Notes under the pieces: model-generated
The model's database searches: none
What the model was told of the DNA's origin: nothing
The model's input: only the letters and a program-made list of their open reading frames with translations
Translations under genes and position numbers: made by a program
Shown: one piece after another, positions 38,984-64,000 of the stretch
Position numbering within the stretch: position 1 is the first letter of the stretch
How the letters are laid out: each line of letters starts with the position of its first letter
Source: Cupriavidus pauculus
GTDB taxonomy: Bacteria; Pseudomonadota; Gammaproteobacteria; Burkholderiales; Burkholderiaceae
Direction: 5' to 3'
Assembly: GCF_003854935.1 (NCBI RefSeq)
Contig: NZ_CP033971.1
Span: 269,966 to 333,965 of the forward strand
Length of the DNA: 64,000 nucleotides

Positions 38984-38995
38984 AGTGGGGGATGG

Positions 38996-39754: not shown

Positions 39755-39769
39755 TTTCTATCTCCGTGT

Positions 39770-42549: not shown

Positions 42550-42550
42550 G

Positions 42551-42898: not shown

Positions 42899-42917
42899 TT
42901 CGGATGGACTCCGTTGG

Positions 42918-43967: not shown

Positions 43968-44365
43968 GCCCGCTATTGTTGGCGGGCAAACGGGTCAGGA
44001 TGGCGGCGAAAGCTGGCCGATTTTCGGTAGCTTTCGACAAATTCGCTTTGTGGCAACCTCAGGGCCCATCCGCCTTCAGCAGCCAGGAAGGAACATGTTC
44101 CTTTCAAAAAAGGCGAATCACACGGTCAAAACCTGAGTATTCGACTTTCTAAGGCACTTTCCGCATCCTCAAGCACGGCTTGCCTGCATGTCTGTGGTCA
44201 AGCCGACTTGAGAGGGCCAATCCCCGGCCGGGGTCAGCGACATGGGGATATGAAAGTCGCCCTCATGCAAATAAATGGAAAGCTCTGCGAAATGGCACAG
44301 CTTTCGGGGCAAACGAACAGCGAATCGCTGTTTCAATTGGCGGCATCCCATTGGACCGCCGCAGC
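43968..44365. promoter_or_regulatory. Divergent promoter region of the two transfer operons
   Basis: These 398 bases separate the leftward (VirB11-first) and rightward (VirB8-first) operons and contain no supportable gene, so promoters for both must lie here. A short AT-richer part at about 44100-44165 is a likely place. I could not pick a convincing promoter pair or operator, and I see no obvious palindrome shared with other parts of the window. Confidence 0.5.
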
Positions 44366-45073: not shown

Positions 45074-45090
45074 TCGTCGCGCATACGCCC

Positions 45091-47246: not shown

Positions 47247-48036
47247 GCGGGTCGCGGCCTTCCTCCTCTGTGCAGCGACATGGGCCGGCGCCCATGCGGC
47301 GACCATTGAGGCCGTCATCAGCCCCAACGCCATTGTGGTGAAGGACGGCGGACAGGTGCGTGTACACACGCTCGATGGCAAGCCGGTCCTCTACTGCGGC
47401 CTTGACGCGTTCCTTGGCTGGTCCGCCCGGCTGCTGGGTGCGCAGATCGAGCCGGGTGCCGACGATGGACCGATCGTGACGTTGGCTGGCAAGGCCACGC
47501 CAATTGCTCGACTGTTCACGCGAGAAGGCTGGCTGCGACCGTCCGCGCTAAGCGATGCGGCGCAAGAAGCCCTGGCCGAGCGGCGCGGTGGCTGGGCGTG
47601 CGCGCCGAAGACCGAGCCGTTTGCCCAGATGGGTGTTCGCGTGGATCCCAAGATTACCGCCGGCATCGCGATGAACGAGTCGTCCTATCGTGGCCGCCCG
47701 TGGCCCTGGACGCTCAATGTGGCTGGGCGAGGCATGTTCTTTGCCACGCGCGAAGAAGCCTACGCAGCCGTTACCCGCCTGATCGCGAACGATCGTTGCG
47801 ATTTTGATGTGGGCCTGATGCAGGTCAACTGGTGCTACCACGGCAAGCGGTTTGCGTCCCCCTGGGATGCGCTGGCGCCCGCCACCAACATTCGCGTCGC
47901 TGAAGACATTTTGGCCGAGAACCTCCAACGCAGCGGCTCGGCCATGAAGGCCGTGGCCTGGTATCACAGTGCGAACCCCGAGCGCGGTGGTCCGTACTTC
48001 TCCCGCTTCATGAAACACGTCGCACAATTCCAATGA
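47239..48036 (+). CDS. VirB1-like lytic transglycosylase
   Basis: A 265-residue exported SLT-domain protein. A signal peptide (KRVAAFLLCAATWAGAHA) is followed by an N-terminal part of about 110 residues without a recognised domain, then the SLT domain: catalytic Glu in GIAMNESSYRG near 150, DVGLMQVNWCYHG near 195 and MKAVAWYHSAN near 235. It should open peptidoglycan for the secretion apparatus. I prefer the GTG at 47239, with GGAG seven bases upstream, over the ATG at 47215; both overlap the VirB10 gene. Confidence 0.82.
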   Translation: MIKRVAAFLLCAATWAGAHAATIEAVISPNAIVVKDGGQVRVHTLDGKPVLYCGLDAFLGWSARLLGAQIEPGADDGPIVTLAGKATPIARLFTREGWLRPSALSDAAQEALAERRGGWACAPKTEPFAQMGVRVDPKITAGIAMNESSYRGRPWPWTLNVAGRGMFFATREEAYAAVTRLIANDRCDFDVGLMQVNWCYHGKRFASPWDALAPATNIRVAEDILAENLQRSGSAMKAVAWYHSANPERGGPYFSRFMKHVAQFQ

Positions 48037-49271
48037 TCAGGCCGCTCCTATTTTCCGCTCTTGCGCTGGTCGCTGCGTGCGCCCATGCGGCCGACACTGA
48101 TCCGCTCGACTTCGACTATCAGGTCATTGCCCGCGCTGCAGATCGCCCGGCCATGGTCTTCAACGACGGCCAGTCGACCTACATTCAACCGCGGCACGGT
48201 CAGCTCGTGCAGGCGGACGGTGCCATTCAGAATGGGCCCTACTGGGTGGTCGACGGCGTACCGGATGTGCTGCGCTATACCGTGAACGGTCAGCCTGTGG
48301 TGGCACGTTGGAAGCGCGCCAACGGATTTACATCCGAGCCGGCCAACGCAGGCGGCGACATGCCACGCAACCTCGCGTCCGTGTCGGGCCGCCTCGCGCT
48401 GATCGGCACCTATTCGGAATTGCCACTGGTGCGGGCTGGCCGCTCATCCCTGCCACTGGCGCAGATGATCAAGTCCATCGCACCGGCAGGCTGGAGTGGT
48501 ACGGCGCAGAAGGATATCCCGCTCACCGACGACGTGTCGCTGGACACACGCGCCGGCGAGAACTGGGTGCAGGCGCTCGCGCGGGTGCTGGAACAGCGCA
48601 ATCTCTATGCAGAGGTGGATTTCGGCCGAAAGAATATCGCGCTGCGCGCGACGCCGCCCAAGGCGTTTGCCGTGGAGCCCGGGGCAGCGACGCCTGCAGG
48701 CGGCATGCTCCGCGCCGCCGCGCCGGTGGTGGCGGCACCTGTGCAGGACACGCCTCCTGCCGGCACGGCCTTGCCGGAAGGTCCGACGTTGGCCTCGGCC
48801 TTCAATGCGCTGGCGATTCGGGACGCGAAGAACGGCCGCATCGAGGTGCGTTTCGACTCGGAGCCGAAGGACCTGGAAGTGCGCGATGGCGCCGGCGCCA
48901 AGTTGCGCACCCGCTGGGACGATACCGAACGGGTGCTGTCCTTCCCGACGGTGGACAGCTTCGTCGCCAGCGGCGGTGGCAAGCGCGTGGAAGTCGCGCG
49001 CGTACCCGGCATCAACTTCCTGTTTCCGCGGGACAACGGCGCTGGCCTCGAGCGTGTCTTCGAAAAGGATGGCGCGACCTATCTGAGCTTCGCCAAGTCG
49101 ATGGCAAGCATCTCGGTGTTCGGGGACAACCACCAGGGTGGCGGGGAGCAGAAGGACCGCTACTACAAGTTCAACGGCGTGTCGGACCACCTGACGGTCA
49201 TCGCAGACGGCAACGTGGTGCGCGTGGACCGCCTGCCGGAGGTCCGCTTCTACGAGCGGGCAGTCCAATGA
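48033..49271 (+). CDS. Chimeric VirB9-like / TcpQ-like envelope protein
   Basis: A 412-residue exported protein (signal peptide to about AHAAD, residue 19) that I read as three parts. About 20-90 is VirB9/CagX C-domain-like: RPAMVFNDGQSTYIQPR and DGVPDVLRYTVNGQPVVARW. About 110-210 is TcpQ/PilL-like: APAGWSGTAQKDIPLTDDV and GENWVQALARVLEQRNLYAEVDF. About 255-410 is a second VirB9-like part: RVFEKDGATYLSFAKSMASISVFGD and LTVIADGNVVRVDRLPEVRFY. It lies between the T4SS core genes and the pilus genes and would physically link the two machines. Current pipelines may call it TrbG/VirB9. The three-part reading is mine. Confidence 0.6.
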   Translation: MIRPLLFSALALVAACAHAADTDPLDFDYQVIARAADRPAMVFNDGQSTYIQPRHGQLVQADGAIQNGPYWVVDGVPDVLRYTVNGQPVVARWKRANGFTSEPANAGGDMPRNLASVSGRLALIGTYSELPLVRAGRSSLPLAQMIKSIAPAGWSGTAQKDIPLTDDVSLDTRAGENWVQALARVLEQRNLYAEVDFGRKNIALRATPPKAFAVEPGAATPAGGMLRAAAPVVAAPVQDTPPAGTALPEGPTLASAFNALAIRDAKNGRIEVRFDSEPKDLEVRDGAGAKLRTRWDDTERVLSFPTVDSFVASGGGKRVEVARVPGINFLFPRDNGAGLERVFEKDGATYLSFAKSMASISVFGDNHQGGGEQKDRYYKFNGVSDHLTVIADGNVVRVDRLPEVRFYERAVQ

Positions 49272-49693
49272 TCGCGATCCGGATTGGTCTGCTGATCGCC
49301 GGCACGGCGCTCGCCAGCGTTGTGCATGCAGATTGCCTCGACGACGCGGCGGCGTTCCATCGCGTGAGTCCCGTGCTGGCGCGTGGCATCGCACAGGTGG
49401 AATCCGGTATGCGCGCGTGGGTAACGAACCGCAACACCAATGGCAGCGAGGACATTGGCCTGATGCAGATCAACTCTGCTCACCTGCCGCGCCTTGCGCG
49501 GTTCGGGATCACCCGCCAGAGCCTCTTTGACCCTTGCACCAATGCCTACGTCGGCACCTGGATCCTCGCCGATTGCCTGGGCCGGTACGGCGAGACGTGG
49601 ACGGCTGTCGGTTGCTACAACGCCGGCTCCCCAGACAAGCGGCTCCGGTACGCCAACCGCGTCTACCAGAAGCTGCAATCGACGACGAAGTAA
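49268..49693 (+). CDS. Lytic transglycosylase, PilT/IpgF-like
   Basis: A 141-residue exported SLT protein: signal peptide to VVHA (residue 20), catalytic Glu in GIAQVESGMRAW near 46, GSEDIGLMQINSAHLPRL near 60-77 and WTAVGCYNAGS near 117. Small SLT enzymes of this kind occur in type IVb pilus (R64 PilT) and T3SS (IpgF) clusters. Its start overlaps the previous stop (ATGA). It is the second peptidoglycan-cutting enzyme in the operon, suggesting that the two machines each bring one. A much longer upstream frame in the same phase is an artefact of the preceding gene. Confidence 0.88.
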   Translation: MIAIRIGLLIAGTALASVVHADCLDDAAAFHRVSPVLARGIAQVESGMRAWVTNRNTNGSEDIGLMQINSAHLPRLARFGITRQSLFDPCTNAYVGTWILADCLGRYGETWTAVGCYNAGSPDKRLRYANRVYQKLQSTTK

Positions 49694-49721
49694 CCCATTC
49701 GAATTGAAACGGAATACAGCC

Positions 49722-50312
49722 ATGCACCAGTCTCGATCGTTGTCCCGGATGTGCCGGGTTCTTCTTGCGGGCGCCGCGGCCGTGGCGGTCTGTGGGCACG
49801 CCGCAGTGCCTGCGTCCTCCCCGTTCGGCGCCGACGCGTCGGGCAACTTCGAGCCGAGCAAGCCCCTGGCGGGCGGTGGCTGGCAACTGCTGTCCGATCG
49901 CAAAGCGCCGAAGGCCGATGCGACAACGGTTGCTGCGCTCACGCCAACACCTGCGGCCACCACTGCGGTGGTGTCGCCGGTGAACGCCGCGACGTCGGCG
50001 GTGCCGACTCCTGTGGCGGCACCGGTGCCCTCCAATGGCCAGCGCGACTGGTCGGTCTCGCCCGGCGATGGCAACTATCGCCTGCTCATCGAGAAGTGGG
50101 CCCGTGACGCCGGCTGGACCACGGCGCCGTGGGAGCCCGACCAGGACGTGCAGATCGAAGGCGCCGACGCCTTCACCGCGGACTTCAAGACGGCCGTGCG
50201 CCGCGTGCTTTCGGCGACGGAGATGACCGACTACAGCCTGAAGCCGTGCTTCTACTCCAACAACCTCGTCCGTGTGGTGAAGCTCACCACGAAGTGCGAC
50301 CCGACCAAGTGA
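49722..50312 (+). CDS. TcpQ-family (PilL C-domain-like) pilus assembly protein
   Basis: A 196-residue exported protein. Signal peptide to CGHA (residue about 27), a Pro/Ala/Thr-rich linker at about 70-105, and a C-terminal toxin-coregulated-pilus Q domain: SPGDGNYRLLIEKWARDAGWTT then EGADAFTADFKTAVRRVL and LKPCFYSNNLVRVVKLTTKC, with two Cys likely disulfide-bonded. TcpQ-type proteins assist the pilus secretin in reaching the outer membrane. It directly precedes the PilN secretin gene. Corresponds to the C-terminal domain of R64 PilL. Confidence 0.82.
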   Translation: MHQSRSLSRMCRVLLAGAAAVAVCGHAAVPASSPFGADASGNFEPSKPLAGGGWQLLSDRKAPKADATTVAALTPTPAATTAVVSPVNAATSAVPTPVAAPVPSNGQRDWSVSPGDGNYRLLIEKWARDAGWTTAPWEPDQDVQIEGADAFTADFKTAVRRVLSATEMTDYSLKPCFYSNNLVRVVKLTTKCDPTK

Positions 50313-50319
50313 GCTGCAG

Positions 50320-52125
50320 ATGAAGCTGAAACACATTCTCCGACCGGCAACCGGCGCCGCCCTGGTCTGTACCACACTCTCCGGTTGTGTCTCCCCGACG
50401 CTGCTCAAGGACGTCCGTCAGACCACGGACACGACGACGATGCAGATCACGCAGACGACCGAGGAACTGTACGCTCGGATCCGGCGGGATCGCGCGGCGG
50501 TGGAGGCCGAGCAGGAAGTGAACCGCCCGTTCCTGGCCGGCAAGCGCGTGCCGGTGGCGCGTAACGTGACGCTGCCCGTTGCACTGCGCAAGGACGTCGA
50601 CACGCTGGTCGTGTTTCCGGAGCGCTCGATGTCGCTGGCGGTTGCCGCCCAGCGCGTGCAGATGGCGACCGGCATCCCCGTCAAGATCGAGTCCGACGTG
50701 TACCTGCCGCCGAATCTGCTGCTGCCGCGCACGTTTGCCGCGCAGGCCCAGCAACAACTGCGCACGGCGCAGCAAGGGCAGGGCGCTGCCGTGAATCCGC
50801 TGTCGCAGGGTCTGGGCCCGGCGCCGGCGCTCAACTCGCCGCTGCCGTCTGCCTTGACGGCTGCCGGAGGCATCGGCGTGACGCAGGCCACGGCGCTCCT
50901 TGAGACGCCGCTCAACGTCGAGTTCAAGAACAGCGAAAAGATGCCGCTGGCGAACATGCTCGACCTGATCGCCACACGACTTGGCATCAACTGGGAGTAC
51001 AACGCCGAGAAGGGGCTGGTCCGGTTCTATCGCCTGGTCACGAAGACCTGGCAATTGCCGATGGCCGGCGGGACCAACTCGTTCACGACCGAGTTCAAGC
51101 AATCGGCTGAGGGCGGTTCGTCGGGTGGCGGCGGCTCGGGCGGAACGGGCCAGTCCGCCCAGATCGATGCCGCGGCCAAGGCCGAGATCAAGGAACAGAA
51201 CGACCTCGAGGGCGTCAAGACCAGCATCCTGCCGGCCATGACGATGGTGGGCAGCTCCGAGCTGAATCCGGCCACCGGTGTGCTCACGCTGCGCGACACG
51301 AAGGAAGCGGTCGACGCTGCCGACGAGATCATTCGTAGGCAAATCGCCATCTACTCGCGGATGGTGACGCTCAAGTTCCAGATGATCGACTTGACGGTCT
51401 CGGACGCAGGCGAGGCCGGGGTGGACTGGAACGTCGTGCTGACTAAGGCATTGCAGAATCTTCCGGGGTTCACGGTCAACGCGCTCTCGCCTGCGACGCT
51501 CGTCTCGTCCACCGCTGGCGGCGTAGGGCTGGGTATCACCTCGGGCGGCTTCGCTGGCACGCAGGCCATCGTGAACGCCCTGAAGCAGTACGGCACCGTG
51601 ACCTCCGGTGTCACGATCCCGGTGTCGATGCGCAACCGGCACGGGTTCCAGTACAACAATCGCCGGACCTTCTCGTATGCGTCGGGCTCGACGCCGGCGA
51701 CGACGACGGCTGGTGGCACGGGCGGCATCCCGGGGATCATCACGTCGACGGCTACGGTCGGCTTCAAGCTGGCTGCCTACGCTGACGCCACCTCGCGTGA
51801 CGACGTGAACCTCACGATCGCCCTGGATCAGTCGAAGCAGGACGGCCCGCTGGAGAAGTTCACGTCGGGCACGGGCAACAACCAACAGTCGGTCCAGACC
51901 ATCAACATCGTCGGCAAGGGTATTCCGAAGCAGGACATCATCGTCCGCAACGGCCAGACGGTCCTCATGGCCGCACTGGACCAGGACGACACCGCCAATA
52001 CCCGCCGGACGCTCGGCGAGTCGTTGCCGATGCTGCTCGGCGGCTCGCAGACCGTATCGAAGACGCGTACGTTCACGCTCCTGCTGGCGACGGTCATGGT
52101 GCAGGACCACGGGGAGGGCAAGTGA
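50320..52125 (+). CDS. pilN: PilN-family type IVb pilus secretin
   Basis: A 601-residue lipoprotein secretin. Lipobox LSGC (Cys23), then N-domains at about 90-240 and the secretin core at about 330-595 with MVTLKFQMIDLTVSDAGEAGVDW, a gate region rich in Gly/Thr near 400-480, and QDIIVRNGQTVLMAALDQDD followed by ESLPMLLGGS at the end. It should form the outer membrane pore for the thin pilus, as PilN of R64 does. A poly-Gly/Ser insertion (SGGGGSGG) lies near 270. Neighbour TcpQ gene is seven bases upstream. Confidence 0.9.
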   Translation: MKLKHILRPATGAALVCTTLSGCVSPTLLKDVRQTTDTTTMQITQTTEELYARIRRDRAAVEAEQEVNRPFLAGKRVPVARNVTLPVALRKDVDTLVVFPERSMSLAVAAQRVQMATGIPVKIESDVYLPPNLLLPRTFAAQAQQQLRTAQQGQGAAVNPLSQGLGPAPALNSPLPSALTAAGGIGVTQATALLETPLNVEFKNSEKMPLANMLDLIATRLGINWEYNAEKGLVRFYRLVTKTWQLPMAGGTNSFTTEFKQSAEGGSSGGGGSGGTGQSAQIDAAAKAEIKEQNDLEGVKTSILPAMTMVGSSELNPATGVLTLRDTKEAVDAADEIIRRQIAIYSRMVTLKFQMIDLTVSDAGEAGVDWNVVLTKALQNLPGFTVNALSPATLVSSTAGGVGLGITSGGFAGTQAIVNALKQYGTVTSGVTIPVSMRNRHGFQYNNRRTFSYASGSTPATTTAGGTGGIPGIITSTATVGFKLAAYADATSRDDVNLTIALDQSKQDGPLEKFTSGTGNNQQSVQTINIVGKGIPKQDIIVRNGQTVLMAALDQDDTANTRRTLGESLPMLLGGSQTVSKTRTFTLLLATVMVQDHGEGK

Positions 52126-52928
52126 TCATGCATGCGATCCGAACGCTGTTAGCTGACACGCTGGCCTTGTATCGACGCTATCCGTTGGTGGCATGCCTGA
52201 CCTGGCTGCCGGGCCTCTCGATGGCGCTTGCGCAGAGCCATGGGCAAACCATCGGCCAGGTGGTCTACGGGGCAGCGGTATGCGCGGTCCTCACAATGAT
52301 TGCCCAAGGGCTTCTGACGGTCTATGGCCTGTCGCTGGAGCAACGGATGGCGGCGACGACTGGCCGAACCTGGACAGTCCAGGCCCACTGCATGGATCTG
52401 GGGGTGATCTCGGACGTCGAATACGCCTCGCTGCGGCACCAAGCGGCCTTCTCAGTTGCGAACTATCTGCGCCAGATCGTCAACGTCTTCGAGATGGCGT
52501 TCAACTTGATCCGTCTGATGACGCGCGCCATTCCGTTCTTTGCCTTCTGGGTCGTGATTGGAGGGCTGCTGCTCGACCCGACCATAGCGCTGGTCGTGGG
52601 GCGCAAGCTGTGGCTGCTCGCTCTGACGTCGCCCGAGTCATTCGCGTCCGGCATGGCTAAAGGCCTGGCCATGGTGATCGCATGGGTTGCCGCGATCTAC
52701 GGCATGTTCATGCCTGGTGCGATTGGATTCTGCAACCAGTTTCGCGCCGACTTGGAGCATTCGCTGCGCCGGCGACTGAATCTGCCGACGAACGCGCGCC
52801 TGGATCTCTACAGTCTCGACGGGAACAAGCGGGTGCCGGCGGCCGAGAGGGCGGAGTTCCGCGCTTTCCTGCGGGCACGCCTGTCCAAGGCGAATAGCGA
52901 CAGCGTGGCGCAGGGAGTCGCCCGATGA
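52122..52928 (+). CDS. Hypothetical membrane protein of the pilus operon
   Basis: A 268-residue protein with hydrophobic segments at about 15-38, 45-70, 130-155 and 180-205 and a polar C-terminal tail. The second part (YLRQIVNVFEMAFNLIRLMTRAIPFF) is amphipathic. I do not recognise it; R64 has no obvious counterpart. It overlaps the secretin gene (GTG at 52122, with GGAGG five bases upstream) and the PilO gene (four bases), so it is surely in the operon. It may be an inner membrane partner of PilO or the T4SS. Confidence 0.7.
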   Translation: MIMHAIRTLLADTLALYRRYPLVACLTWLPGLSMALAQSHGQTIGQVVYGAAVCAVLTMIAQGLLTVYGLSLEQRMAATTGRTWTVQAHCMDLGVISDVEYASLRHQAAFSVANYLRQIVNVFEMAFNLIRLMTRAIPFFAFWVVIGGLLLDPTIALVVGRKLWLLALTSPESFASGMAKGLAMVIAWVAAIYGMFMPGAIGFCNQFRADLEHSLRRRLNLPTNARLDLYSLDGNKRVPAAERAEFRAFLRARLSKANSDSVAQGVAR

Positions 52929-54289
52929 TCCTCGAGATCCACGGCAAGGCGATAGCCTTCGGCATGCAATGGCGCACCCTGACCGGGAACGCGCCCGCGC
53001 CTGACCTGGCCGCCAAGGTTGCCAAGGAAGTGAAGGCCACGCGGATCTGGCACGACGGGACTGCCCTGCACATGGGCTACCTCGCCCAGGAAGACGCGCA
53101 GACCAAGGTGAAGGACAAGCTCTATTCGGCGGCCGTCGCGGTGGCCCGCATTCCGGGGCTGATGCCGAACGTGTTCTTCGCCTACAGGCTGGAACACGCG
53201 GGCCAGCACGTCGGCTACCTGGTTTGCGGCATCCTCAAAGGCCGGCCACGTGTCGGGTTCGACCGCGTCATCCAGGACGAGCAGGCACTGTCCGAACTGG
53301 CGATCGAGTTCGCGCGGGTCGCCGGCGGCACCTTCAGGCTCGCCGGAAACCTCCCCGAGTTGGCCCAATTGCTCGGCAATGTGCCGGCCCTGACTTTCTC
53401 GGAACTGACGCTCGAGCAGCTCGCCGACGCCGCCGACCAGCACGCGGCACTGCGCAAACCGAGTTCTGCCGCGACGAAGAAGCGTTTGGTGGCGCTGGCT
53501 GCGCTCGTACTGCTGGGAGCCGTTGGCTACAAGTACGGCATGGCGCAGTACCGTGCCTATGAGGCACGCAAGCATCCGCCGCCCCCGCAGAAGAGCCCGG
53601 CGCAACGCTATGCCGAAGACATCCTCGCTCGCGGCCGCGCGCCGTCGGCGGTCGCTGCGGTGGCGGTGCCGCGCTTCGCAAAGTGGTTCGTCGACGTCGA
53701 TCCGCTGTTTGTTGGCGGGTGGAAGCTGACGAAGGTTGCCTGCGGCTCGGTCGTGGCGCCGCAGGCGACTTGCTCGCTCACCTACGGAATGGACGGCGCA
53801 AAGGGCGCCCCGCGCGGCGTGACCAATGCCACATTCCTGGCCGCGCTGCCGGACGCCTTCAGCGCACCGGTCTTCGCCAAGGAAGACAAGGAGGTCACCG
53901 TGCAGGCGATGGTGCCATTCGGCCCCGACGCGTCGCTGGGCAAGCTGCTCGAAACGCTGCCGACCTCGATGGCGCTGCGCACGGACTTCGGTTCGACGCT
54001 GCAGCTCCTGCGTCCTGCGGCGTCCAAGGCGGTGCTGCAGGATATCGGACTGTTCGGCTCGATCCCGGGTGAGGGGGTTGCCTCGATCCCGTATGTCTAC
54101 AAGAGCGCGAAGTGGGAGATGGAGGGGCCGCTGCGCAACGCGGCGGAGATCGGCACCTTTCCGCCAAACGTGTCGGTCAACGAGATCGCCCTGACGATCA
54201 ACCTGGACGCGGACTCCGACATCCAGAAATCGAAGTTTGAACTCAATGTGAAGGGCGATGCGTACGCCCGCGATGGAGGAAACCAATGA
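52925..54289 (+). CDS. pilO: PilO-family type IVb pilus accessory protein
   Basis: A 454-residue protein. An N-terminal cytoplasmic domain (1-175) with WRTLTGNAPAPDLAAKVAKEV is followed by one membrane segment at about 183-202 (LVALAALVLLGAVGYKYG) and a large periplasmic domain with a Cys pair (VACGSVVAPQATCSLTY near 280-296). This is the layout of R64 PilO (PilO2-type), an inner membrane alignment protein. Coupled to both neighbours by four-base overlaps (ATGA). Assignment by layout, position and pattern. Confidence 0.85.
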   Translation: MILEIHGKAIAFGMQWRTLTGNAPAPDLAAKVAKEVKATRIWHDGTALHMGYLAQEDAQTKVKDKLYSAAVAVARIPGLMPNVFFAYRLEHAGQHVGYLVCGILKGRPRVGFDRVIQDEQALSELAIEFARVAGGTFRLAGNLPELAQLLGNVPALTFSELTLEQLADAADQHAALRKPSSAATKKRLVALAALVLLGAVGYKYGMAQYRAYEARKHPPPPQKSPAQRYAEDILARGRAPSAVAAVAVPRFAKWFVDVDPLFVGGWKLTKVACGSVVAPQATCSLTYGMDGAKGAPRGVTNATFLAALPDAFSAPVFAKEDKEVTVQAMVPFGPDASLGKLLETLPTSMALRTDFGSTLQLLRPAASKAVLQDIGLFGSIPGEGVASIPYVYKSAKWEMEGPLRNAAEIGTFPPNVSVNEIALTINLDADSDIQKSKFELNVKGDAYARDGGNQ

Positions 54290-54918
54290 AACGCATCGCC
54301 ATGACTCTTCTTGCAGTTGCTGCCTCGCTGGCGCATGCGGAAGGCGACAAGACCGTGACGCGGGTGCTTCTGGAGAAGGACGCGCAGATCGCCGTGCAGA
54401 AGGCGGACCAGGAGCTGGCCAAGACGAATCCGGCGCCGGTGGTTGCCGCGCCGGCGCCGACCGCAGAGCAACGCGAGGCCCGCGCGGTTCCCAAGACCGT
54501 CGCGATCTTTGGCGTGGACGGCAGCAAGGCCGGCCTGCCCGTATCGCTGCGCAGCTACGTGAAGTGGGGCAATCAGATCTACCCGGCGAAGGTCGGTGGC
54601 AGCGTGCGCGGGTTCAAGGTGGTGTCCATCTCCGAGTCGGGCACGCGGCTCTCCAAGGGAAAACAGACCCTGACCGCCGAGCGGGCCGACGACGATGTGG
54701 TGCTGCTGGACGAGCCTGCGCCGCGCGCGTCGGTGGCAAACGCCGGCGCCCCCATCCCGAACCATGCAATGCCCGGCGGGTCCGCGCCGATGCCCTCCCA
54801 GCCGCCGGTGATGCCGGTTCCGTTGCCTGGAGCCGGGGGCAATGGCGCGGCTCCGGTGATGCCCCCGGCGCCGGCAGTGCCGGCCGTGCCGCCTGCCGCG
54901 GCAGTGGCGCAGGGCTAA
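54286..54918 (+). CDS. pilP: PilP-family type IVb pilus protein
   Basis: A 210-residue exported protein with a signal peptide (AVAASLAHA, residue 18). The middle reads SLRSYVKWGNQIYPAKVGGS and GFKVVSISESGTRLSKGKQTLTA, a PilP-like beta domain; the tail is a Pro/Gly/Ala-rich region of about 60 residues. PilP is thought to connect the inner membrane PilO part to the secretin. Overlaps the PilO stop by four bases and precedes the PilQ ATPase gene by 11. Confidence 0.82.
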   Translation: MKRIAMTLLAVAASLAHAEGDKTVTRVLLEKDAQIAVQKADQELAKTNPAPVVAAPAPTAEQREARAVPKTVAIFGVDGSKAGLPVSLRSYVKWGNQIYPAKVGGSVRGFKVVSISESGTRLSKGKQTLTAERADDDVVLLDEPAPRASVANAGAPIPNHAMPGGSAPMPSQPPVMPVPLPGAGGNGAAPVMPPAPAVPAVPPAAAVAQG

Positions 54919-54929
54919 GGGAGGCCATC

Positions 54930-56747
54930 GTGCGATTCTTTGAACGCTCCCGGAAGGGGCTGGTGCCCGAAGCCTCAGGCGGCATCATGGTTATCTCCGG
55001 GGCTGGCGCGGCGCGAGCGGGCCAGGCCCCGACGGCCACGGCCACCATCCATGCCGAGCCCTCTCTTTCGATCCCGGAGGTGAGCGAGGTCGGGTGTACG
55101 GAAGTGCGGACGACCGACGATCTGCCCCCGTTCGCCCGGGCGCTGTACGACGATCTGTCGTTGGCGCAATCGCTACGGCACCAGATCTGCCCGGTGCTGA
55201 TCGAGGCGCCGGCAGATGGCCATCGCGGCAAGTTCGCCTTCATCCTGCTGGCGGACATGCGGTACTCCGACTATACGGACGAGATCCTGCGCCAGGCAAA
55301 GCTGCGCTGGGACGCGGCAGACCCGCTGTTCTACACCGCCACGCCGCAGGTGATGACGGCGCTGTCGCGTGGCGTTGAAGGCAGCGTCCGGCAGGAGGGC
55401 GTCCAGACCACCGGGCTGCGCAATGCGAGCGGCCTGTGGCAAACGTTCCTGGCCGCCGCGCAGTTTGCGAAGCGGGAGCAGGCATCGGATATCCACTTCG
55501 AGGTGAAGGACAACAGCGAGCTCTCGCAGATCCGCTTCGCCATCGATGGGCACCTGGTCCTGCCGCCCGAGTTTCGCCTGCGCACGACCGACCTGCTGGA
55601 CATGCTGTCTCACGTCTTCCAGAAAGGGAAGGGCGGCTCCCACGGTGTATTCAGCCGCGTGCAGCCGCAGCAGACAAGCATCCGCACGGTCGTCGATGGC
55701 GTACCGATGGTGTTCCGGTGGGCTTCGATGCAGAGCGCCGACGGCCACGTGACCGTCATGCGGATGAATCCCGAGAATGCGACCACGACGCAGGTCGACT
55801 TCGTCAAGGACCTGCACTTCTTCCAGCAGCAGGCGGATGTGATCGACCGTTGCACCATGCAGATGGGCGGCGGCGTCGTACTGGTCGGGACAGTTGGCTC
55901 GGGGAAGACGACCACGGCGCACGCCGTGATGCAGCGCCTTCCGTCCTGGATGAACAAGATGTCGATCGAGGACCCGGTCGAACTGATGGCCCACGGCACG
56001 CACCATTTCTCCGTAGCGCGGCAGCTCGATGGTTCGAACCGGGAGGAGGACCCGTTCATCGTTGCGAAGCGGCAGCTCAAGCGGATGAACCCCCACTTCG
56101 TGATGATCGGCGAGGTGCGGGATTTCGAGTCGGCCGGGCTGTTCCGCGACGTCGCCGGCGCGGGCCTGCGCGCGATGACCACGCTGCACGCGCCTTCGGC
56201 CACCGCCGCCACCGACCGGCTGGCAGACAGCGAACTGCAGATTCCGCGCAGCGTGCTGGCCACGCCGGGATTTGTGAACCTGTACGTGTACCAGGCGCTG
56301 CTCGCCAAGACGTGTGAGTGCGGGCATCACGGCGAGGAAGCCAAGGCCATTCTGGGTGCCACCAAGCTGCACCGGATCGAGCGCCTGTTCCAGTTCGACG
56401 TCGAGAACATCCGCGTGCGGCGCGAAGCGGGGTGCGAGAAGTGCCGCCGCGCGAACCTGCCGGACCTCAACGGCATCCGCGGCCGCGTCATGGCCGCCGA
56501 AATGTTCGAACCCGACGAGCTGGACCTGATGTACATCCGCGATGCACGCGCGATCGAGCTGCAGGCGCACCAACGTGAGAAGCGCGTCACGGGCTTCGAC
56601 GTGCCCGACAGCACCGGCAAGTCGGTATTCGAGGTGGCCATGTATCACGTGTTCGCCGGCACCGTGGACCCTCGGCAGGCCGAGCGGATTCTGTCGCTGG
56701 ACGCATACGAAGCCAAGCTGAAACGAATGAAGGGGGCCCGAGCATGA
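54930..56747 (+). CDS. pilQ: PilQ-family (GspE-type) pilus assembly ATPase
   Basis: A 605-residue traffic ATPase. N-terminal part to about 170, then FLAAAQFAKREQASDIHFEV near 175-195, Walker A VLVGTVGSGKTTTA near 317-330, Walker B region MIGEVRDFESAGLFRDVAGAG near 390-411 and the His box TTLHAPS near 416. C-terminal CECGHHG and GCEKCRRANL near 461 and 500 form a CxC...CxxC zinc site as in GspE/PilB. The start is a GTG at 54930 with GGGAGG five bases upstream. It should power pilus extension. PilQ naming follows R64. Confidence 0.92.
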   Translation: MRFFERSRKGLVPEASGGIMVISGAGAARAGQAPTATATIHAEPSLSIPEVSEVGCTEVRTTDDLPPFARALYDDLSLAQSLRHQICPVLIEAPADGHRGKFAFILLADMRYSDYTDEILRQAKLRWDAADPLFYTATPQVMTALSRGVEGSVRQEGVQTTGLRNASGLWQTFLAAAQFAKREQASDIHFEVKDNSELSQIRFAIDGHLVLPPEFRLRTTDLLDMLSHVFQKGKGGSHGVFSRVQPQQTSIRTVVDGVPMVFRWASMQSADGHVTVMRMNPENATTTQVDFVKDLHFFQQQADVIDRCTMQMGGGVVLVGTVGSGKTTTAHAVMQRLPSWMNKMSIEDPVELMAHGTHHFSVARQLDGSNREEDPFIVAKRQLKRMNPHFVMIGEVRDFESAGLFRDVAGAGLRAMTTLHAPSATAATDRLADSELQIPRSVLATPGFVNLYVYQALLAKTCECGHHGEEAKAILGATKLHRIERLFQFDVENIRVRREAGCEKCRRANLPDLNGIRGRVMAAEMFEPDELDLMYIRDARAIELQAHQREKRVTGFDVPDSTGKSVFEVAMYHVFAGTVDPRQAERILSLDAYEAKLKRMKGARA

Positions 56748-57979
56748 TGCAGCGCCTGAAGGACGCATTTGCCGCGATCAAGCGCAAGAAGTACGCCGCG
56801 GCCGCCGAGAGTATTGGCGGCGCGACCGGACGGTTTCCCGACAAGCTGTGGTTCGCAAAGCTGGAGTTCTCGCCCAAGCGCGCGGACTACTACTTTGACT
56901 TGGCCATGCGCATCGAGAAGATGCCGGGCGAGCCGATCTCGAACCACTTTGCCAAGGATGCGGCGCGCCGCGCGGGCGAGCCGCTGGGCCTGCTGGCGGC
57001 CCTGTGGCTGGCACGCTACGAAGGCCTCGATGGGCAGATGCAGGAGTCGCGCCTGGCTGAAATCTTCCGGGGCACGGTTCCTGACGAAGACCTCGCCATC
57101 TTGGCGGTGGCCGAGCAGGGCGGTGACGTGAAGGACGGCTTGTTCCGGCTCGCGGACAACCTTCGGGCTATGAGCGAGGCGAAGTCCAACATCCTGCTGC
57201 TGCTGGCAAGCATGGGCATTACGCTGATCATCCTGCACGTCTACCTCGGCGTCATGGCGTTCATCGTGGCCCCGATGCTGGATCGGAGCTTCGCAAACCT
57301 TCTGCCCGTGGACGGCTACGGGCCGATCGCCCGGGCATTCCATCTCGGCACCACGTTCCTGCGTGAGTGGGGCTGGCTGGTGCTCCTGGGTGAAGCGGGG
57401 CTTGTGTGGTGGGTAGCGCGTGCGCTGCGCAACTACACCGGCCCGTACCGCGCGTGGCTGGACAAGAACGTCATCATCTTCGACTTCTTCCGCAGGTTTC
57501 AGGGTGCGCAGTTCCTCGGCGCCATGTCGGCCGTCACGCAGCGATTCGGCGGCGACATGAACAATCTGAGCAATGCGCTGGAGATGATGCGCGCCAACGC
57601 GTATCCCTACCTTGCCCAGCACATCCGGCGTATCGAGGCGACGCTTGAAGAGTCGCCCAACGCCGGCGGCAAGATGTTCGACACGGGCCTCTTTGACCGG
57701 GATACCACCTATCGCATTCAGGATATCGCGGAGTATGAGGACGACCTCTCCAAGATGCTGAATACGGTGTCGATGACCCTGCTGAAGACCGCGCCGCGCG
57801 AGCTTGAACAGCGGGCATCGAAGTTCAATCGGCGTTCCTCGATCCTGCTAATCATCCTGATCACCGCCCTCGCTTTCATGCCCGCATTCATGGCGCGCGA
57901 GCTGAAGCAGAGCATGCAGGTGCACGGCATGAAGACACACCAGAAAAGCACCAATCCTTCCACCCTCCCATCCAACTGA
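56744..57979 (+). CDS. pilR: PilR-family (GspF-type) inner membrane platform protein
   Basis: A 411-residue platform protein with membrane segments at about 150-172, 205-225 and 365-388 (SILLIILITALAFMPAFM) and two GspF-like helical repeats in between; ELEQRASKFNRRSSI near 348-363 is the typical last cytoplasmic stretch. It anchors the ATPase and gathers pilins. The start overlaps the PilQ stop by four bases. Named after R64 PilR. Confidence 0.88.
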   Translation: MMQRLKDAFAAIKRKKYAAAAESIGGATGRFPDKLWFAKLEFSPKRADYYFDLAMRIEKMPGEPISNHFAKDAARRAGEPLGLLAALWLARYEGLDGQMQESRLAEIFRGTVPDEDLAILAVAEQGGDVKDGLFRLADNLRAMSEAKSNILLLLASMGITLIILHVYLGVMAFIVAPMLDRSFANLLPVDGYGPIARAFHLGTTFLREWGWLVLLGEAGLVWWVARALRNYTGPYRAWLDKNVIIFDFFRRFQGAQFLGAMSAVTQRFGGDMNNLSNALEMMRANAYPYLAQHIRRIEATLEESPNAGGKMFDTGLFDRDTTYRIQDIAEYEDDLSKMLNTVSMTLLKTAPRELEQRASKFNRRSSILLIILITALAFMPAFMARELKQSMQVHGMKTHQKSTNPSTLPSN

Positions 57980-57995
57980 CGAACAAGGCTGAATC

Positions 57996-58628
57996 ATGGA
58001 CAACAACCTGCAAACCAACACGGCGGCTCGCGACACGACGGCGGGCGACACCCTGGTACCGCTCAACCGCCTGAGCCGTGCCGAGCAATGGAAGCGCATC
58101 CGTAGCAATCCGCGCTTCCGTGGCCAGCACGGCGGCATTCTGGACGAATACGGTTTCTACCTGCTGCTCGTGGCCTTCTCGCTCGTTGCGATCCTCGTGC
58201 TCTTCTCGGGCAACTCGACCGATTCGCAGGTCCAGCAGTTCACGACCGAGCTCAACAAGGTGATGGGCAAGGTGAAGACGAACTATCGCGGCCGTTACGG
58301 CACGGTGACCGTGGCTTCGGTGGTCGACAACGGCACGTTCAAGGACCTCACGACGATGACGGTAGACAGCGGAACGGTGACCGTGCAGCCGGGCGGCGGC
58401 ACGCTGACGATCGTGCCGGGCAAGCTGCTGACGGCCAACGATTCGGTCCAGTACACCATCCCGAATCAGCCCGACGCCGCGTGCACGCAGATTGCTTCGG
58501 CCTTCCAGAGCAGCGCCGGCAAGATCGTTGTCAACGGTGTCCCTATTAAGAGCGTCGGGGGCAGTGTGAATATGACGGAGGTGAAGTGCTCCGGCGACAG
58601 CAACACGATCGACCTTTTCATGTCCTGA
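57996..58628 (+). CDS. pilS: PilS-like type IVb major prepilin
   Basis: A 210-residue prepilin with a long basic leader (about 46 residues), then QHGGILDEYGFYLLLVAFS and a hydrophobic helix to about 70. Cleavage between G46 and G47 would put Glu at mature position 5 (G-I-L-D-E), the pilin hallmark, and leave a mature protein of about 164 residues. Two Cys near the end (AACTQIAS and EVKCSGD) can form the pilin disulfide. The PilS name rests on position between PilR and PilV genes and on these features. A stem-loop follows the stop. Confidence 0.85.
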   Translation: MDNNLQTNTAARDTTAGDTLVPLNRLSRAEQWKRIRSNPRFRGQHGGILDEYGFYLLLVAFSLVAILVLFSGNSTDSQVQQFTTELNKVMGKVKTNYRGRYGTVTVASVVDNGTFKDLTTMTVDSGTVTVQPGGGTLTIVPGKLLTANDSVQYTIPNQPDAACTQIASAFQSSAGKIVVNGVPIKSVGGSVNMTEVKCSGDSNTIDLFMS

Positions 58629-58653
58629 TCTCGGTCTAACGCGGGTAGAGACT

Positions 58654-58675
58654 GCCCGGCCGCTGGCCGGGCTTT
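58654..58675 (+). terminator. Stem-loop between pilin and minor pilin genes
   Basis: GCCCGGCC (58654-58661) pairs perfectly with GGCCGGGC (58665-58672) over a three-base loop and is followed by TTT. Lying 26 bases after the pilS stop and 22 before pilV, it may act as a partial terminator or mRNA stabiliser, keeping the major pilin in excess over PilV. Confidence 0.5.
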
Positions 58676-58693
58676 GGCATAGGAGAGTGGAAT

Positions 58694-59962
58694 ATGTTGA
58701 TGTCGAACTACACCATGGGGCTGGCGCTCAGCAGCGTCGCGCTGTTGGCATCGATCCCGTGGACGTACGCGGAGATCGAGGAGGTGCAATCGGTCGGGAC
58801 GGGCAACTACCTGGCGACCATCGCTTCCGCCGCCAATACCTACACGTTCGAGGCGTTCACGGATCTGGCGAAGAGCCCGGCCGGCCCCACGAACCTGACC
58901 GTGGGCGGCAAGACGATCGGGGTGCAGGATCCCCTGCATCCCACAGTCCAGGACTTTATCAACTTCGGGCTCTTGCCGATCGGCTACACCGACATCAGTC
59001 CGCTGGGCCTGACGTTTCGGATCGACCTGACGCCGACGAACTGCGCGGTCAACATCACGGCCTGCTCGATCCCGGGTCTGGTGTACTCGACGACGGGATA
59101 CCGGGATGCGATCGGGCGTGTTCGGACGGATCTGCTCGGCCTTGCCGTTTCGAAGGCGGGGCAGGATGCCGGTGTTTCGTACGCGGAAACGCCCGCGACG
59201 ATCACGGGCATGTCCGCCAGCTGGTCGACCCCCAACCCCGTCGCTGGTAGGCCTTCCGGTGTTCTGGCGATGCGGACTGGCTCCAGCTCCCTCCTGGCGC
59301 AGTCGATGAACCAGTTCTACAAGCGCGACGGCTCGTTGAACCTGACGGGCCCTATGGACGCCAATAACCAGGCGATGAACCGGGTGGGGAACTTCCAGTC
59401 CAATGGTTCGGTTTCGGCGGCGGGGAATGTGTCAGCTTCGGGCAGCGTCGGTGCCTCGGGCAACGTAATCGCCGGCGCAAGTGTGTCCGGCAACGCCCTC
59501 TACGGAAACTATGTGCAATCCAATGGGGGCGCGCTCATTGGCGGTGAAATGCAGGCGGGACAAGTTACAGCAAATCTCGTCCAATCGACCGGTAATGTTA
59601 CGAGCGCTGGCAATATGGTCGCTAGCGGGTATATGTATGCTGCTGGGGCGCTCGTGCCTTCAGTGGGTGGAGGGCAGCAGGTTGTCGAAGGATGGGCATG
59701 CGCTGACCCTCAGGGCGCGATTCGGAGCGATCCAAACGGAAAGACGTTGTCTTGCCAGAATGGCGTGTGGCGGTCGGCGGGGGGCGGCGATGGCCTTATT
59801 GTGGGCTTTTGGAACGGCAGCAACTCGGCGGGAAACTATGCCGGTATCTGCATCTCCCATGCTGGTGCTAGTGGCGGCATGTACGATAACAGCTATATGG
59901 TGATGAATCCTGCTTGCCCAGCGGGGAGCTACGGTTACCCCACGAACTTCGCTACCCGTTGA
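58694..59962 (+). CDS. pilV: PilV-like type IVb pilus tip adhesin
   Basis: A 422-residue PilV-like protein. The N-terminus has a hydrophobic helix (GLALSSVALLASIPW) resembling a prepilin, then a constant part to about 255. A Gly/Ser/Asn-rich repeating part follows (SASGSVGASGNV, NVTSAGNMVASG; about 235-320). The tip region has the PilV hallmark VEGWACADPQGAIRS, LSCQNGVWRSAGG and a Cys-containing end. In R64 the tip is switched by a shufflon; here no inverted repeats or Rci gene are seen. The DNA from about 59480 on is less GC-biased than the front, suggesting tip exchange. Last gene of the operon. Confidence 0.85.
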   Translation: MLMSNYTMGLALSSVALLASIPWTYAEIEEVQSVGTGNYLATIASAANTYTFEAFTDLAKSPAGPTNLTVGGKTIGVQDPLHPTVQDFINFGLLPIGYTDISPLGLTFRIDLTPTNCAVNITACSIPGLVYSTTGYRDAIGRVRTDLLGLAVSKAGQDAGVSYAETPATITGMSASWSTPNPVAGRPSGVLAMRTGSSSLLAQSMNQFYKRDGSLNLTGPMDANNQAMNRVGNFQSNGSVSAAGNVSASGSVGASGNVIAGASVSGNALYGNYVQSNGGALIGGEMQAGQVTANLVQSTGNVTSAGNMVASGYMYAAGALVPSVGGGQQVVEGWACADPQGAIRSDPNGKTLSCQNGVWRSAGGGDGLIVGFWNGSNSAGNYAGICISHAGASGGMYDNSYMVMNPACPAGSYGYPTNFATR

Positions 59963-61642: not shown

Positions 61643-62824
61643 TTACTTGCGGCGACGGTTGCCACCCCGGGTGGCCGTGAGAGTTCCGTTGCAGCAAGGG
61701 CATGTGAAGGAGTGGAGAAGCTCGATCCTCTCCGACGAATTGGACGCTAGGTATGGGGTCCCGCATTTCCGGCACGGCCAGACCGCCAACTCCTCGGTCA
61801 TGGCCATCGAGCGTGCCAGGTGCATGGAGCGCTCCGGAGGCACCTTGCAATCTTCGGCGAAGAACGTTTTGTTGATGTCCATCGTCGCAACAAAGCTCTC
61901 GGGCGTCGAGACCTCCCGCGCAATGGCCGAGCGGAACAACCACATCTGGAACGTCGATTGCACGCGCCTCTGCGGAGTCTCGATGAACCACGTCAGCGAC
62001 GAAGGCGGCTGGCCCGACGGCGACGATTTGCCATGAATCCTTCGGTAGGCGTCCCGGGTGAATTCAAGGCTGGTATTGAACAGCGAAGAGACGCTCTTGG
62101 CGCGGCACCCGAAGTCGAGGAACGCCTCAAAGAGGGCATCGCGCACGAAGTTCTCCAGCCGGAACTTGCCCCACGGCTCCGAGTGGGGAAGCTTGTCGGT
62201 GTGCATGGGCGACGATTCCATGAGGTAGTGGGCAACGAGTTCGCGCGAGAGCCGGCCCGCGTGCGTCTCCAGCCAGAACATCTCGTTATCGAAACGCCAG
62301 TGGAAGAGCGGCACCAGGCGTTCCGATATGGCCACATCCATTTCGTGCTGCGGGACCGAGCGCAAATAGGCGGCAAGTTCGTTTGAGATGCCGACGAGCG
62401 GGGCCGCCAGCACCGACATGTTCAACATGTCGTACAGCGCCGTAATGTAGGACCGGTTTGTGTGCTCGAGCGCGAGACGTTCCACGATCGACAGATCGGC
62501 CGGCAAGGCCGACTGCAAACCATCCAGGGTGATGGTCGGAATACTGCCTTCGATGAAGGAACGCCAGTCCGCTACCGAGGATAGGGCAGGTGCGAATGCC
62601 AGGAAAGGCGTGCAGAAGACCTTGTTGGAGTTTTCCTGGTCGCTGCGGAACGCGAACAGGTCGTTGTGCTTGACCCGGAAAATGCGTTCCAGTTCGGGGC
62701 GGACGGCTACAGCGTTCACGACATAGTTGCTGATCCGCAGATTGGCCGACAAGGCGCGATCCTGTACCCAGTTCGGCAGGATGAACTGCTCGAAGATCGA
62801 GCGGGATGGGTTGGCTTGCATCAT
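61643..62824 (-). CDS. FlhC-family regulator with an FlhD-like segment (possible fused FlhDC/AcaDC)
   Basis: A 393-residue protein that I read as three parts. Residues about 1-110 are unrecognised. At about 118-190 is an FlhD-like helical part (HTNRSYITALYDMLNMSVLA, LVGISNELAAYLRSV, LFHWRFDNE), matching FlhD in the order SYL, LG, and FRFD. At about 225-385 is FlhC-like: RDAYRRIHGKSSPSGQPPSS (FlhC: YKELRGSPPPKG..P.S), WF near 279-280, then a zinc site C351, C354, C375, C378. FlhDC-like AcaCD and SetCD are master activators of conjugation in IncC plasmids and SXT. Start overlaps the upstream stop (TGATG). The FlhC part is likely, the FlhD part is inference. Confidence 0.65.
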   Translation of the reverse strand: MMQANPSRSIFEQFILPNWVQDRALSANLRISNYVVNAVAVRPELERIFRVKHNDLFAFRSDQENSNKVFCTPFLAFAPALSSVADWRSFIEGSIPTITLDGLQSALPADLSIVERLALEHTNRSYITALYDMLNMSVLAAPLVGISNELAAYLRSVPQHEMDVAISERLVPLFHWRFDNEMFWLETHAGRLSRELVAHYLMESSPMHTDKLPHSEPWGKFRLENFVRDALFEAFLDFGCRAKSVSSLFNTSLEFTRDAYRRIHGKSSPSGQPPSSLTWFIETPQRRVQSTFQMWLFRSAIAREVSTPESFVATMDINKTFFAEDCKVPPERSMHLARSMAMTEELAVWPCRKCGTPYLASNSSERIELLHSFTCPCCNGTLTATRGGNRRRK

Positions 62825-64000
62825 CAGGCTCCGGTAAGGCCAATCAGTTCGTTCTGGAAGGACTCCACCCGACGCCGCAGCGAAAGCAGGGCCGCACCGT
62901 GTTCCTTCTTTTTGATGGATTTGATCGTCGCACGGAACTTGTTCAGTGCGTCGTCCAGGTCGGCGCACAGGCCGTCGATGCGAAGCGCCGTGCTACGTGA
63001 ATCCGCCACCTGCGACTCGTGCGCCTGGATCTGGACGTTGAGATCGCCCAGGTGTTGCTGGGTCTCGCGCAACTGCGCCTTGGCCTCTTCCAGTTGCCTG
63101 TTGGCATCGAGGACGGCCTCCGCAATGTTCTTGTACTCCGACGGCACGACCTCGACCCGCACCTCCCGGACGACCTCGCGGATTTTCGATTCCGCCAGAG
63201 TCTTCTGCAGCGCCGTCTTCTCCGCGGTCAGCCGCGACACGAGCACCTGCAGCGACTCGACCGCATTTGCCTGGGAGCTCAGCGCCGCAGTGGAACGATC
63301 GAGCTGCTCTTTCTGCGCCAGCTTCTGCGCCTCGGAAAGGTTCGCTTGTTCCCGCATGATCCGCATCTGTGCTTCGAGATCCCGCTGGCGCTCGAGGCTC
63401 TCATTTAACTGGTCCTCGGCCGCCTGCAGCGTCGCCATGACGCTGTTCAGCTCCTGATGGGTCTTTCGGGACCATTCGATGTACGGAATGATGTCCTTGC
63501 GCGAATACGTCTCGTCGGACTTGCGCGCATCGATAAACCGCTGGATCTCTTCGTCTGTGATGTCAGATCGCTTGAGGATCGTCAGTTCGCCCAGGTTCAG
63601 AAACGTGATGGCGTCGGCGTTGTCCGAGAAGTGATGGAAAGCCTGAAGGTACTTGATGGCCGAGCCCCGGGAGATCCGCAACGCCTTGGCGGCGAAGGAA
63701 TACAGCAGCGTGTCAGCTTCGCTCTGCGCGCGCTCTCCGGCACCGAGCCGTTTCTGCACGGAGGTCAGGATCGCGTAATAGATCTGGAACATCCGTGAGC
63801 CGATGGCGGCGTGCTCGCTCAGAATGCGCCGGCGGGAGGTTTCAATCTCTTGTGCCGCCTGAACAATACGGCTGATTGCCGCATTGTCGACGTACTCGCC
63901 CAGCTGGTGAACGGCCAATTCACGTAACGAGTTCGATGCACCCGGATTGACGATATCGAATCGCGGGTTGTCCTTCTTGTCTTCGTTTCCTTTGCTTTCC
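62824..64000 (-). CDS. Coiled-coil DNA-binding-like protein, 5' end beyond the window
   Basis: An open frame of at least 391 residues runs from the right window edge (no stop reaching 64000) to a stop at 62824-62826. Sequence near residue 60-120 (of the part seen from LRELAVHQLGEYV) has FAAKALRISRGSAIKYLQAFHHF, a helix-turn-helix-like piece resembling DUF3102-type proteins. A long coiled coil follows (about 165-340; QANLSEAQKLAQKEQLDRS, LRETQQHLGDLNVQIQA). It overlaps the FlhDC-like gene by one base. The layout recalls KfrA/coiled-coil plasmid regulators, but the family is not certain. An ATG-like start at 63918 (TTG) lies inside the frame and is not the true start. Confidence 0.65.
   Translation of the reverse strand, partial: ESKGNEDKKDNPRFDIVNPGASNSLRELAVHQLGEYVDNAAISRIVQAAQEIETSRRRILSEHAAIGSRMFQIYYAILTSVQKRLGAGERAQSEADTLLYSFAAKALRISRGSAIKYLQAFHHFSDNADAITFLNLGELTILKRSDITDEEIQRFIDARKSDETYSRKDIIPYIEWSRKTHQELNSVMATLQAAEDQLNESLERQRDLEAQMRIMREQANLSEAQKLAQKEQLDRSTAALSSQANAVESLQVLVSRLTAEKTALQKTLAESKIREVVREVRVEVVPSEYKNIAEAVLDANRQLEEAKAQLRETQQHLGDLNVQIQAHESQVADSRSTALRIDGLCADLDDALNKFRATIKSIKKKEHGAALLSLRRRVESFQNELIGLTGA

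Follow-up and report, generated by a model that had tools for sequence, protein, structure and literature searches.

The window analysed here, a stretch of 64,000 nucleotides, corresponds to positions 269966-333965 of contig C4 (333,965 bases), one of the four contigs of the genome. C4 can be read as circular, because a gene at the end of the window (the partner gene described below) runs on across the end of the contig. Close to this end, the minus strand carries a long open frame for a predicted regulator with the following parts:

61643..62824, minus strand: predicted one-chain FlhD-FlhC regulator, 393 aa, order D′-D-C (profile searches, dN/dS)
61646..62179, minus strand: FlhC-like domain, residues 216-393, with C351-x2-C354 ... 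C375-x2-C378 (profile searches)
62180..62503, minus strand: FlhD-like domain, residues 108-215, aligned core 118-193 (profile-profile comparison, PDB search)
62501..62824, minus strand: N-terminal domain, residues 1-108, possible degenerate second FlhD-like copy (D′; suggestive, local profile match)
62824..64000, minus strand, open frame to 64011: operon partner, helical N-terminal part followed by a long coiled coil

The regulator frame begins with ATGATG, overlapping the TGA of the upstream partner gene. Its limits and strand are those given by a first-pass annotation, and all motifs quoted there are present in the translation. FlhD and FlhC are normally made as separate proteins. Plasmid homologues of the window protein bear the RefSeq label ‘FlhC family’, which leaves the FlhD half without a name.

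The Pfam FlhC family (PF05280, gathering score 27) matched residues 237-384 of the window protein with 23.9 bits (E 4.1e-5). The NCBIfam FlhC model gave 25.1 bits (E 1.2e-5), far from the 216-bit cut-off of the flagellar FlhC equivalog NF009365. When the 22 members of alignment A1 were searched, all of them matched PF05280 (E ≤ 1, best 2.8e-14), and two fusion relatives exceeded its gathering score (38 and 34.5 bits). C351, C354, C375, and C378 are invariant across the 22 sequences and form a candidate zinc site. The Pfam FlhD family (PF05247) had no match in the window protein itself and weakly matched three of the 22 members (best E 0.004). We then compared profiles with hhalign, using 43 sequences of <90% identity drawn from 83 members. 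Residues 216-393 matched FlhC with P 2.9e-14, and residues 108-215 matched FlhD over 75 columns with P 3.1e-6; a 35-sequence set gave 2.8e-14 and 1.1e-5, respectively. The score of the FlhD match was reached by none of 100 column shuffles in either local or global mode (35-sequence set) and by none of 119 windows of other proteins. Shuffles and windows together rule out a chance resemblance of the FlhD and FlhC parts.

A search of 177,635 distinct PDB sequences with profile A1 returned just three matches at E ≤ 10, all of them FlhC or FlhD: FlhC 8j56_C (1.9e-10), FlhC 2avu_E (4.3e-7), and FlhD 8j56_A (0.0019). A single-sequence PDB search with the window protein found neither FlhC nor FlhD; its two deubiquitinase matches are at chance level. 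The first-pass annotation had assigned the C-terminal half to FlhC and the segment before it to FlhD. The former assignment is borne out by the PF05280 match, the CxxC...CxxC arrangement, and the profile-profile comparison, with similarity over residues 220-385 well beyond chance; the latter holds on the strength of the PDB match to FlhD and of the profile-profile match, whose aligned core (residues 118-193) falls within residues 110-195.

The order FlhD-then-FlhC in one chain, also proposed at first pass, agrees both with the profile tests and with matches that continue across a stop codon. In genome G031, the match spans residues 118-383 across one TGA between the FlhD-like and FlhC-like frames, and the family profile likewise reads through a stop between these frames in several other genomes. 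Split copies, with two frames, were seen solely in the draft genomes G053 (contig C303) and G024 (contig C8), and 83 members (duplicates counted) cover at least 300 profile positions within one open frame. A tree built from 12 fusion rows and 31 others placed the fusions in one group apart from flagellar FlhC (97/89, with the bootstrap not settled). Two stand-alone FlhC-like sequences, L094 and L107, appeared as tree neighbours of this group; their branches are very long, and we gave the placement no weight. A fusion of FlhD and FlhC in one chain is, on all these comparisons, very probable.

The origin of residues 1-108 is a more delicate matter. A local alignment pairs residues 20-96 with residues 115-193 of the chain in 77 collinear columns (P 0.004). 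The score of 20.8 was reached by none of 150 column shuffles and none of 119 windows of other proteins, a control set that includes some antisense frames; the best of these windows came near it, with 19.9 over 25 columns. The size of the region also suits one FlhD. We are somewhat inclined to see in it a degenerate second FlhD-like copy, giving a putative D′-D-C chain. If so, two chains would carry four FlhD-type and two FlhC-type domains, as in D4C2. It is nevertheless quite possible that residues 1-108 are an unrelated sensor or oligomerisation domain added to a D-C chain: profile-profile comparison found no match of this region to FlhD itself (P 0.15 and 0.24) or to FlhC, swapping query and template shortens the local alignment to only 44 columns (P 0.005), and with a smaller set 43 of 100 shuffles were as good in global mode, which leaves that mode without support for the repeat, and 2 of 100 in local mode. 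The FlhD-like genes of the unfused relatives described below also look single-domain. An extra domain of this kind would still fit the function proposed below. The possible second FlhD-like domain and a constant coiled-coil partner are additions to what was noted at first pass, as is the finding that the gene has many relatives in a large family.

The fusion occurs on a group of large, related plasmids of Burkholderiaceae. By tblastn, 48 plasmid records matched, each with 80% or more of the protein covered in one place; the records are from Burkholderiaceae and include pMOL28, with its duplicates counted, and pHG1. Carriers belong to Cupriavidus, Burkholderia, Paraburkholderia, Caballeronia, and Robbsia; among named plasmids, the nearest matches (70-91% identity) are from Cupriavidus. 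Among 149 relatives, matches at E ≤ 1e-3 were found in 34, of which 28 are of the window's genus and six others have weak FlhC-type matches. At E ≤ 1e-20 the fusion was found in 42 of 300 genomes of the family, representing 5 of 25 genera. Across 399 genomes of the order, with up to four candidates scored per genome, two full-length matches were found, in G000 and G009, both of the window's genus. One scan of viral contigs found no relative. Compared with pMOL28, the dN/dS of the fusion gene is 0.043 (0.055, 0.037, and 0.036 for its three parts), which rules out a pseudogene.

The start of the partner gene falls just past the window end. In 82 of 84 loci (duplicates included) the gene is found upstream of the fusion and in the same orientation; both remaining loci represent one contig end, and in L042, one of the 82, an IS66 element is placed between partner and fusion. 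Three Pfam matches at E ≤ 10 suggested no convincing family for the partner, and none was to a DNA-binding family or to ParB. Kinship with FlhD or FlhC was discarded, as there was no convincing match. A hint of DUF2857 was given no weight either: it matched 3 of 26 members (best E 9.5e-4), but coiled-coil families score equally, and the one member scored for DUF2857 falls below the cut-off. A PDB search gave 139 matches at E ≤ 1, the best 60 of which fall on the coiled-coil half.

In annotated plasmids, the usual order is primase and SSB genes, partner, fusion, small genes, and a convergent type IV pilus operon. Many Burkholderia-type plasmids have a NERD gene ahead of the partner, and a CAP-domain gene often follows the small genes. 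T4SS genes continue the pilus operon wherever the compared stretch extended that far. L037 is an exception, with other genes after the fusion. In the window, the transfer genes form two divergent operons:

34837..43967, minus strand: left transfer operon, putative target (names from collinear pMOL28; TraD and TraI_2 by Pfam)
43968..44365, no strand: divergent promoter region of both transfer operons
44008..44035, minus strand: 28-bp inverted repeat GAAAGCT-N14-AGCTTTC, candidate operator, 40 bp before the virB11 start
44278..44305, plus strand: 28-bp inverted repeat, candidate operator, 60 bp before the virB8 start
44366..59962, plus strand: right transfer operon, putative target (names from collinear pMOL28; TrbI by Pfam)

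The left operon encodes a VirB11-type ATPase, TrbC/VirB2, VirB4, TrbJ, a T4SS protein, a TraI-domain protein, and TraD. The right one encodes VirB8, VirB9, TrbI/VirB10, and transglycosylases, followed by type IV pilus genes up to an adhesin.

Probable unfused relatives were found near transfer genes as well. Two other Burkholderiales, G136 and G145 (L243 and L244), have a stand-alone diverged FlhC-like gene (PF05280, 63 and 53 bits) less than 10 kb from homologues of the virB11, traD, and traI-type genes of the window plasmid, with a virB4 homologue also nearby. In G136, the order is a coiled-coil gene, an FlhD-like frame, and the FlhC-like gene; the FlhD-like frame was recognised by eye, its profile matches are not significant (E 0.27-0.47), and it has no Pfam match. 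In G145, a DUF3102/coiled-coil gene is followed by a small gene, a frame that weakly matches FlhD (E 0.005), and the FlhC-like gene; the DUF3102 score of the partner counterpart (24.4 bits) is exactly at the cut-off. In a two-protein search, the partner profile matched the G136 coiled-coil protein over 45 residues outside the coiled coil (E 2.4e-6). From these gene sets and the partner-profile match, we consider that the arrangement partner-FlhD-FlhC probably occurs next to related transfer modules in two states, fused and unfused. On a Methylobacter plasmid (L241 4935-6616), a DUF4325 gene is flanked by two FlhC-like genes; traD and mobH are close by.

Both copies of the 28-bp repeat in the divergent promoter region are exact. 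With up to three mismatches allowed, the window contains 7 matches, compared with 2.3 expected. We scanned 23 sources for the T4SS divergent region; 21 had both genes and gave 17 distinct sequences, L130 and L131 being left out since the compared stretches missed the genes. At least 12 of 14 arm bases were present on both sides of the region in 16 of the 17 sequences, with the repeat about 40 bp upstream of virB11 and about 60 bp upstream of virB8; L140 had no repeat at its T4SS region. Across the 61 genomes of the genus, the exact repeat occurs in 24 and the reversed pattern in none. It is present in 22 of 28 genomes with the fusion and in 2 of 33 without it (Fisher 4e-9), a co-occurrence that reflects in part common descent, since gene and element sit on a common plasmid backbone. 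Eight repeat places were inspected. Seven belong either to the virB11/virB8 region or to the stretch ahead of RMET_RS31230 homologues, one of them in G005, where the repeat is present and the fusion was not detected; the eighth, in G013, has no backbone homology. Exact repeats with another centre were found once each in G047, G055, G052, and G038, and also in G013.

A matrix was built from 32 T4SS sites of the window's genus alone, with no regulator-promoter site in the training set. When C4 and pMOL28 were scanned with it, the T4SS sites ranked first in both plasmids, followed by a site before the RMET_RS31230 operon (66 bp upstream in pMOL28) and one before the regulator operon, i.e. upstream of the partner gene. 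Ten shuffles of C4 gave a top score of 25.8 bits; thus, a lone site of 25-27 bits means little, and the sites before RMET_RS31230 and the regulator operon lean on their conservation. Of 26 loci with enough sequence upstream of the partner, 19 score at least 18 there (17 of 24, plus both of two added loci), and none does so in the reversed-sequence control. The other seven score below 18; three of these (L038, L044, and L051) score below 9, though both genes are present. In Burkholderia, the matrix also marks the virB8 promoter of all three plasmids scanned (24-30 bits); the fusion proteins of these plasmids share 35-36% identity with that of the window.

Further copies of the repeat were observed elsewhere. 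One with a single mismatch lies at 28973-29000, with a Rep3-type replication initiator ORF 108 bp further on (29109). Another, at pMOL28 75158-75185 (L163 5159-5186) and at C4:45751, the latter outside the window, precedes an operon that comprises a bactofilin gene and two genes of unknown function and is exact in some relatives. In pMOL28, IS1086 (137456-138475; L164 18457-19476) is inserted between the candidate operator and the partner-fusion operon and may alter the regulation of the latter.

The transfer promoter contains two more symmetrical elements. A perfect 16-bp palindrome, AAGGAACATGTTCCTT, is located at 44088-44103. Its core GGAACATGTTCC recurs at C4:12892 and ahead of the regulator operon in pMOL28, EM10, and pHG1; TGAGCATGCTCA takes its place in some plasmids. 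As an operator of the fusion, the palindrome is a poor candidate: it is present in 10 of the 17 distinct T4SS regions, compared with 16 of 17 for the 28-bp repeat, and the core or its variant precedes the regulator operon in just 5 of 24 loci. It may be the site of another plasmid regulator. The second element is a short inverted repeat, GCCCGC-N8-GCGGGC (43968-43987), immediately before the virB11 start codon. Both of its arms are changed in L128 and L129, and translational control is a possible function.

What the sequence establishes is an FlhD-FlhC fusion, a conserved gene pair, and a conserved DNA element common to the regulator operon and the transfer genes. With this element in common, the fusion probably turns plasmid transfer on, and control of transfer through the 28-bp repeat, with either the fusion or its partner as the binder, is a well-supported hypothesis. 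We judge it reasonably likely that the fusion is a one-chain activator of conjugation of the AcaCD/SetCD kind and acts via the repeat. The link to conjugation drawn by the first-pass annotation gains from the conserved context, the shared promoter element, and the probable unfused relatives beside homologous transfer genes. Where it spoke of a ‘new type of master regulator’, the protein is better described as a one-chain variant, itself new, within the FlhDC/AcaCD/SetCD kind.

According to the mechanism that we propose, two D′-D-C chains would pair as (D′D)2C2, restoring the arrangement of flagellar D4C2. The FlhC parts, each bearing a Cys4 site, would recognise both arms of GAAAGCT-N14-AGCTTTC and recruit RNA polymerase. 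The predicted targets are the two divergent transfer operons (T4SS, relaxase, coupling protein, and type IV pilus) and the operon of the fusion itself, the latter giving positive feedback of the type described for BisDC in parts of PMC7423338. The product of the upstream coiled-coil gene would act as a co-regulator. We infer the dimer stoichiometry, the identity of the repeat binder, activation over repression, and the feedback. Our fuller proposal, that a D′-D-C dimer rebuilds D4C2 and, together with the partner, forms a self-amplifying transfer switch of Burkholderiaceae megaplasmids (pMOL28, pHG1, and relatives), is put forward tentatively.

The roles of the two proteins might be divided differently, with the coiled-coil partner binding the repeat and the fusion working through it as a co-activator or co-repressor. 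The partner is no less constant than the fusion gene, being found with it in 82 of 84 loci, the element travels together with both genes, and the G145 counterpart scores at the cut-off for DUF3102. Yet none of the partner's three Pfam matches is to a DNA-binding family, and SetCD alone, with its box, activates in E. coli in the experiments that parts of PMC4344509 describe, so FlhDC-like proteins need no such partner there. We regard binding by the partner as rather unlikely. We also considered that the fusion mainly regulates other things, such as host flagella or plasmid replication, or that it represses transfer. The one-mismatch repeat before the Rep3 initiator gene would fit a role in replication, and the host has its own flhD and flhC, with whose products the subunits might mix. 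However, the two transfer operons carry the sites with the highest scores and the strongest conservation, and the probable unfused relatives likewise adjoin transfer genes, leaving such a principal role improbable.

If the fuller D′-D-C proposal is correct, this arrangement would fix the subunit ratio covalently and let the two D copies specialise. The fusion is a candidate transfer regulator for the well-known plasmids pMOL28 and pHG1, and the 28-bp repeat a candidate operator that can be searched for in other elements. The protein also offers a natural tethered construct for studying the division of work between FlhD and FlhC in D4C2, and through its probable unfused relatives, the way in which the fusion arose becomes open to testing.

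In elements of enterobacteria and vibrios, conjugation is under the master control of FlhDC-like complexes, which consist of two proteins throughout the literature excerpted here. In a review, the FlhCD-like regulators carried by mobile elements of Enterobacteriaceae and Vibrionaceae are presented as pairs of C and D; the words ‘Cupriavidus’ and ‘Burkholderia’ are absent from its main text (PMC4542580). In open-licence PMC papers, we found no description of a fused FlhD-FlhC form or of this gene.

AcaCD of IncA/C plasmids resembles the fusion in being FlhC- and FlhD-like, in belonging to a conjugative plasmid, and in having paired sites in a divergent tra promoter. Parts of PMC4207636 report that AcaC and AcaD (22.2 and 22.8 kDa) co-purify, that the complex activates tra promoters in a manner compatible with class II activation, that the vcrx059-traI divergent region has two AcaCD motifs, and that the predicted sites of Table 1 are 28 bp long, most with an A-rich centre. 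Unlike the fusion, AcaCD consists of two proteins and has another site sequence; no fusion is mentioned in these parts (PMC4207636). SetC of the SXT/R391 ICEs is matched by the FlhC-domain profile of our family (E 3.5e-9, five-protein search), and SetD weakly by the FlhD-domain profile (0.011, same search). SetCD differs in being encoded by two separate genes (99 and 177 aa) on an ICE. In the portions of PMC4344509 used here, its motifs stand back to back in one divergent region, and the box, the sole element added in the E. coli experiments, was enough for activation. Rts1 requires both setC and setD, as stated in part of PMC10838148.

BisC, the FlhC-like protein of ICEclc, works with the product of the upstream gene and activates transfer functions, and BisDC feeds back on its own promoter (sections of PMC7423338). 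BisDC differs from the fusion in that BisD has a ParB domain, with no FlhD domain detected in the same sections, the two proteins come from two genes, and BisC belongs to DUF2857. The partner of the window, by contrast with BisD, shows no ParB among its three Pfam matches at E ≤ 10. Flagellar FlhD4C2 is set apart from the fusion by its separate genes and by the position of flagellar FlhC outside the fusion group in the tree. It shares with the fusion the families of both halves, the Cys4 site, and the D-before-C order, and its solved entry 8j56 contains four FlhD and two FlhC chains.
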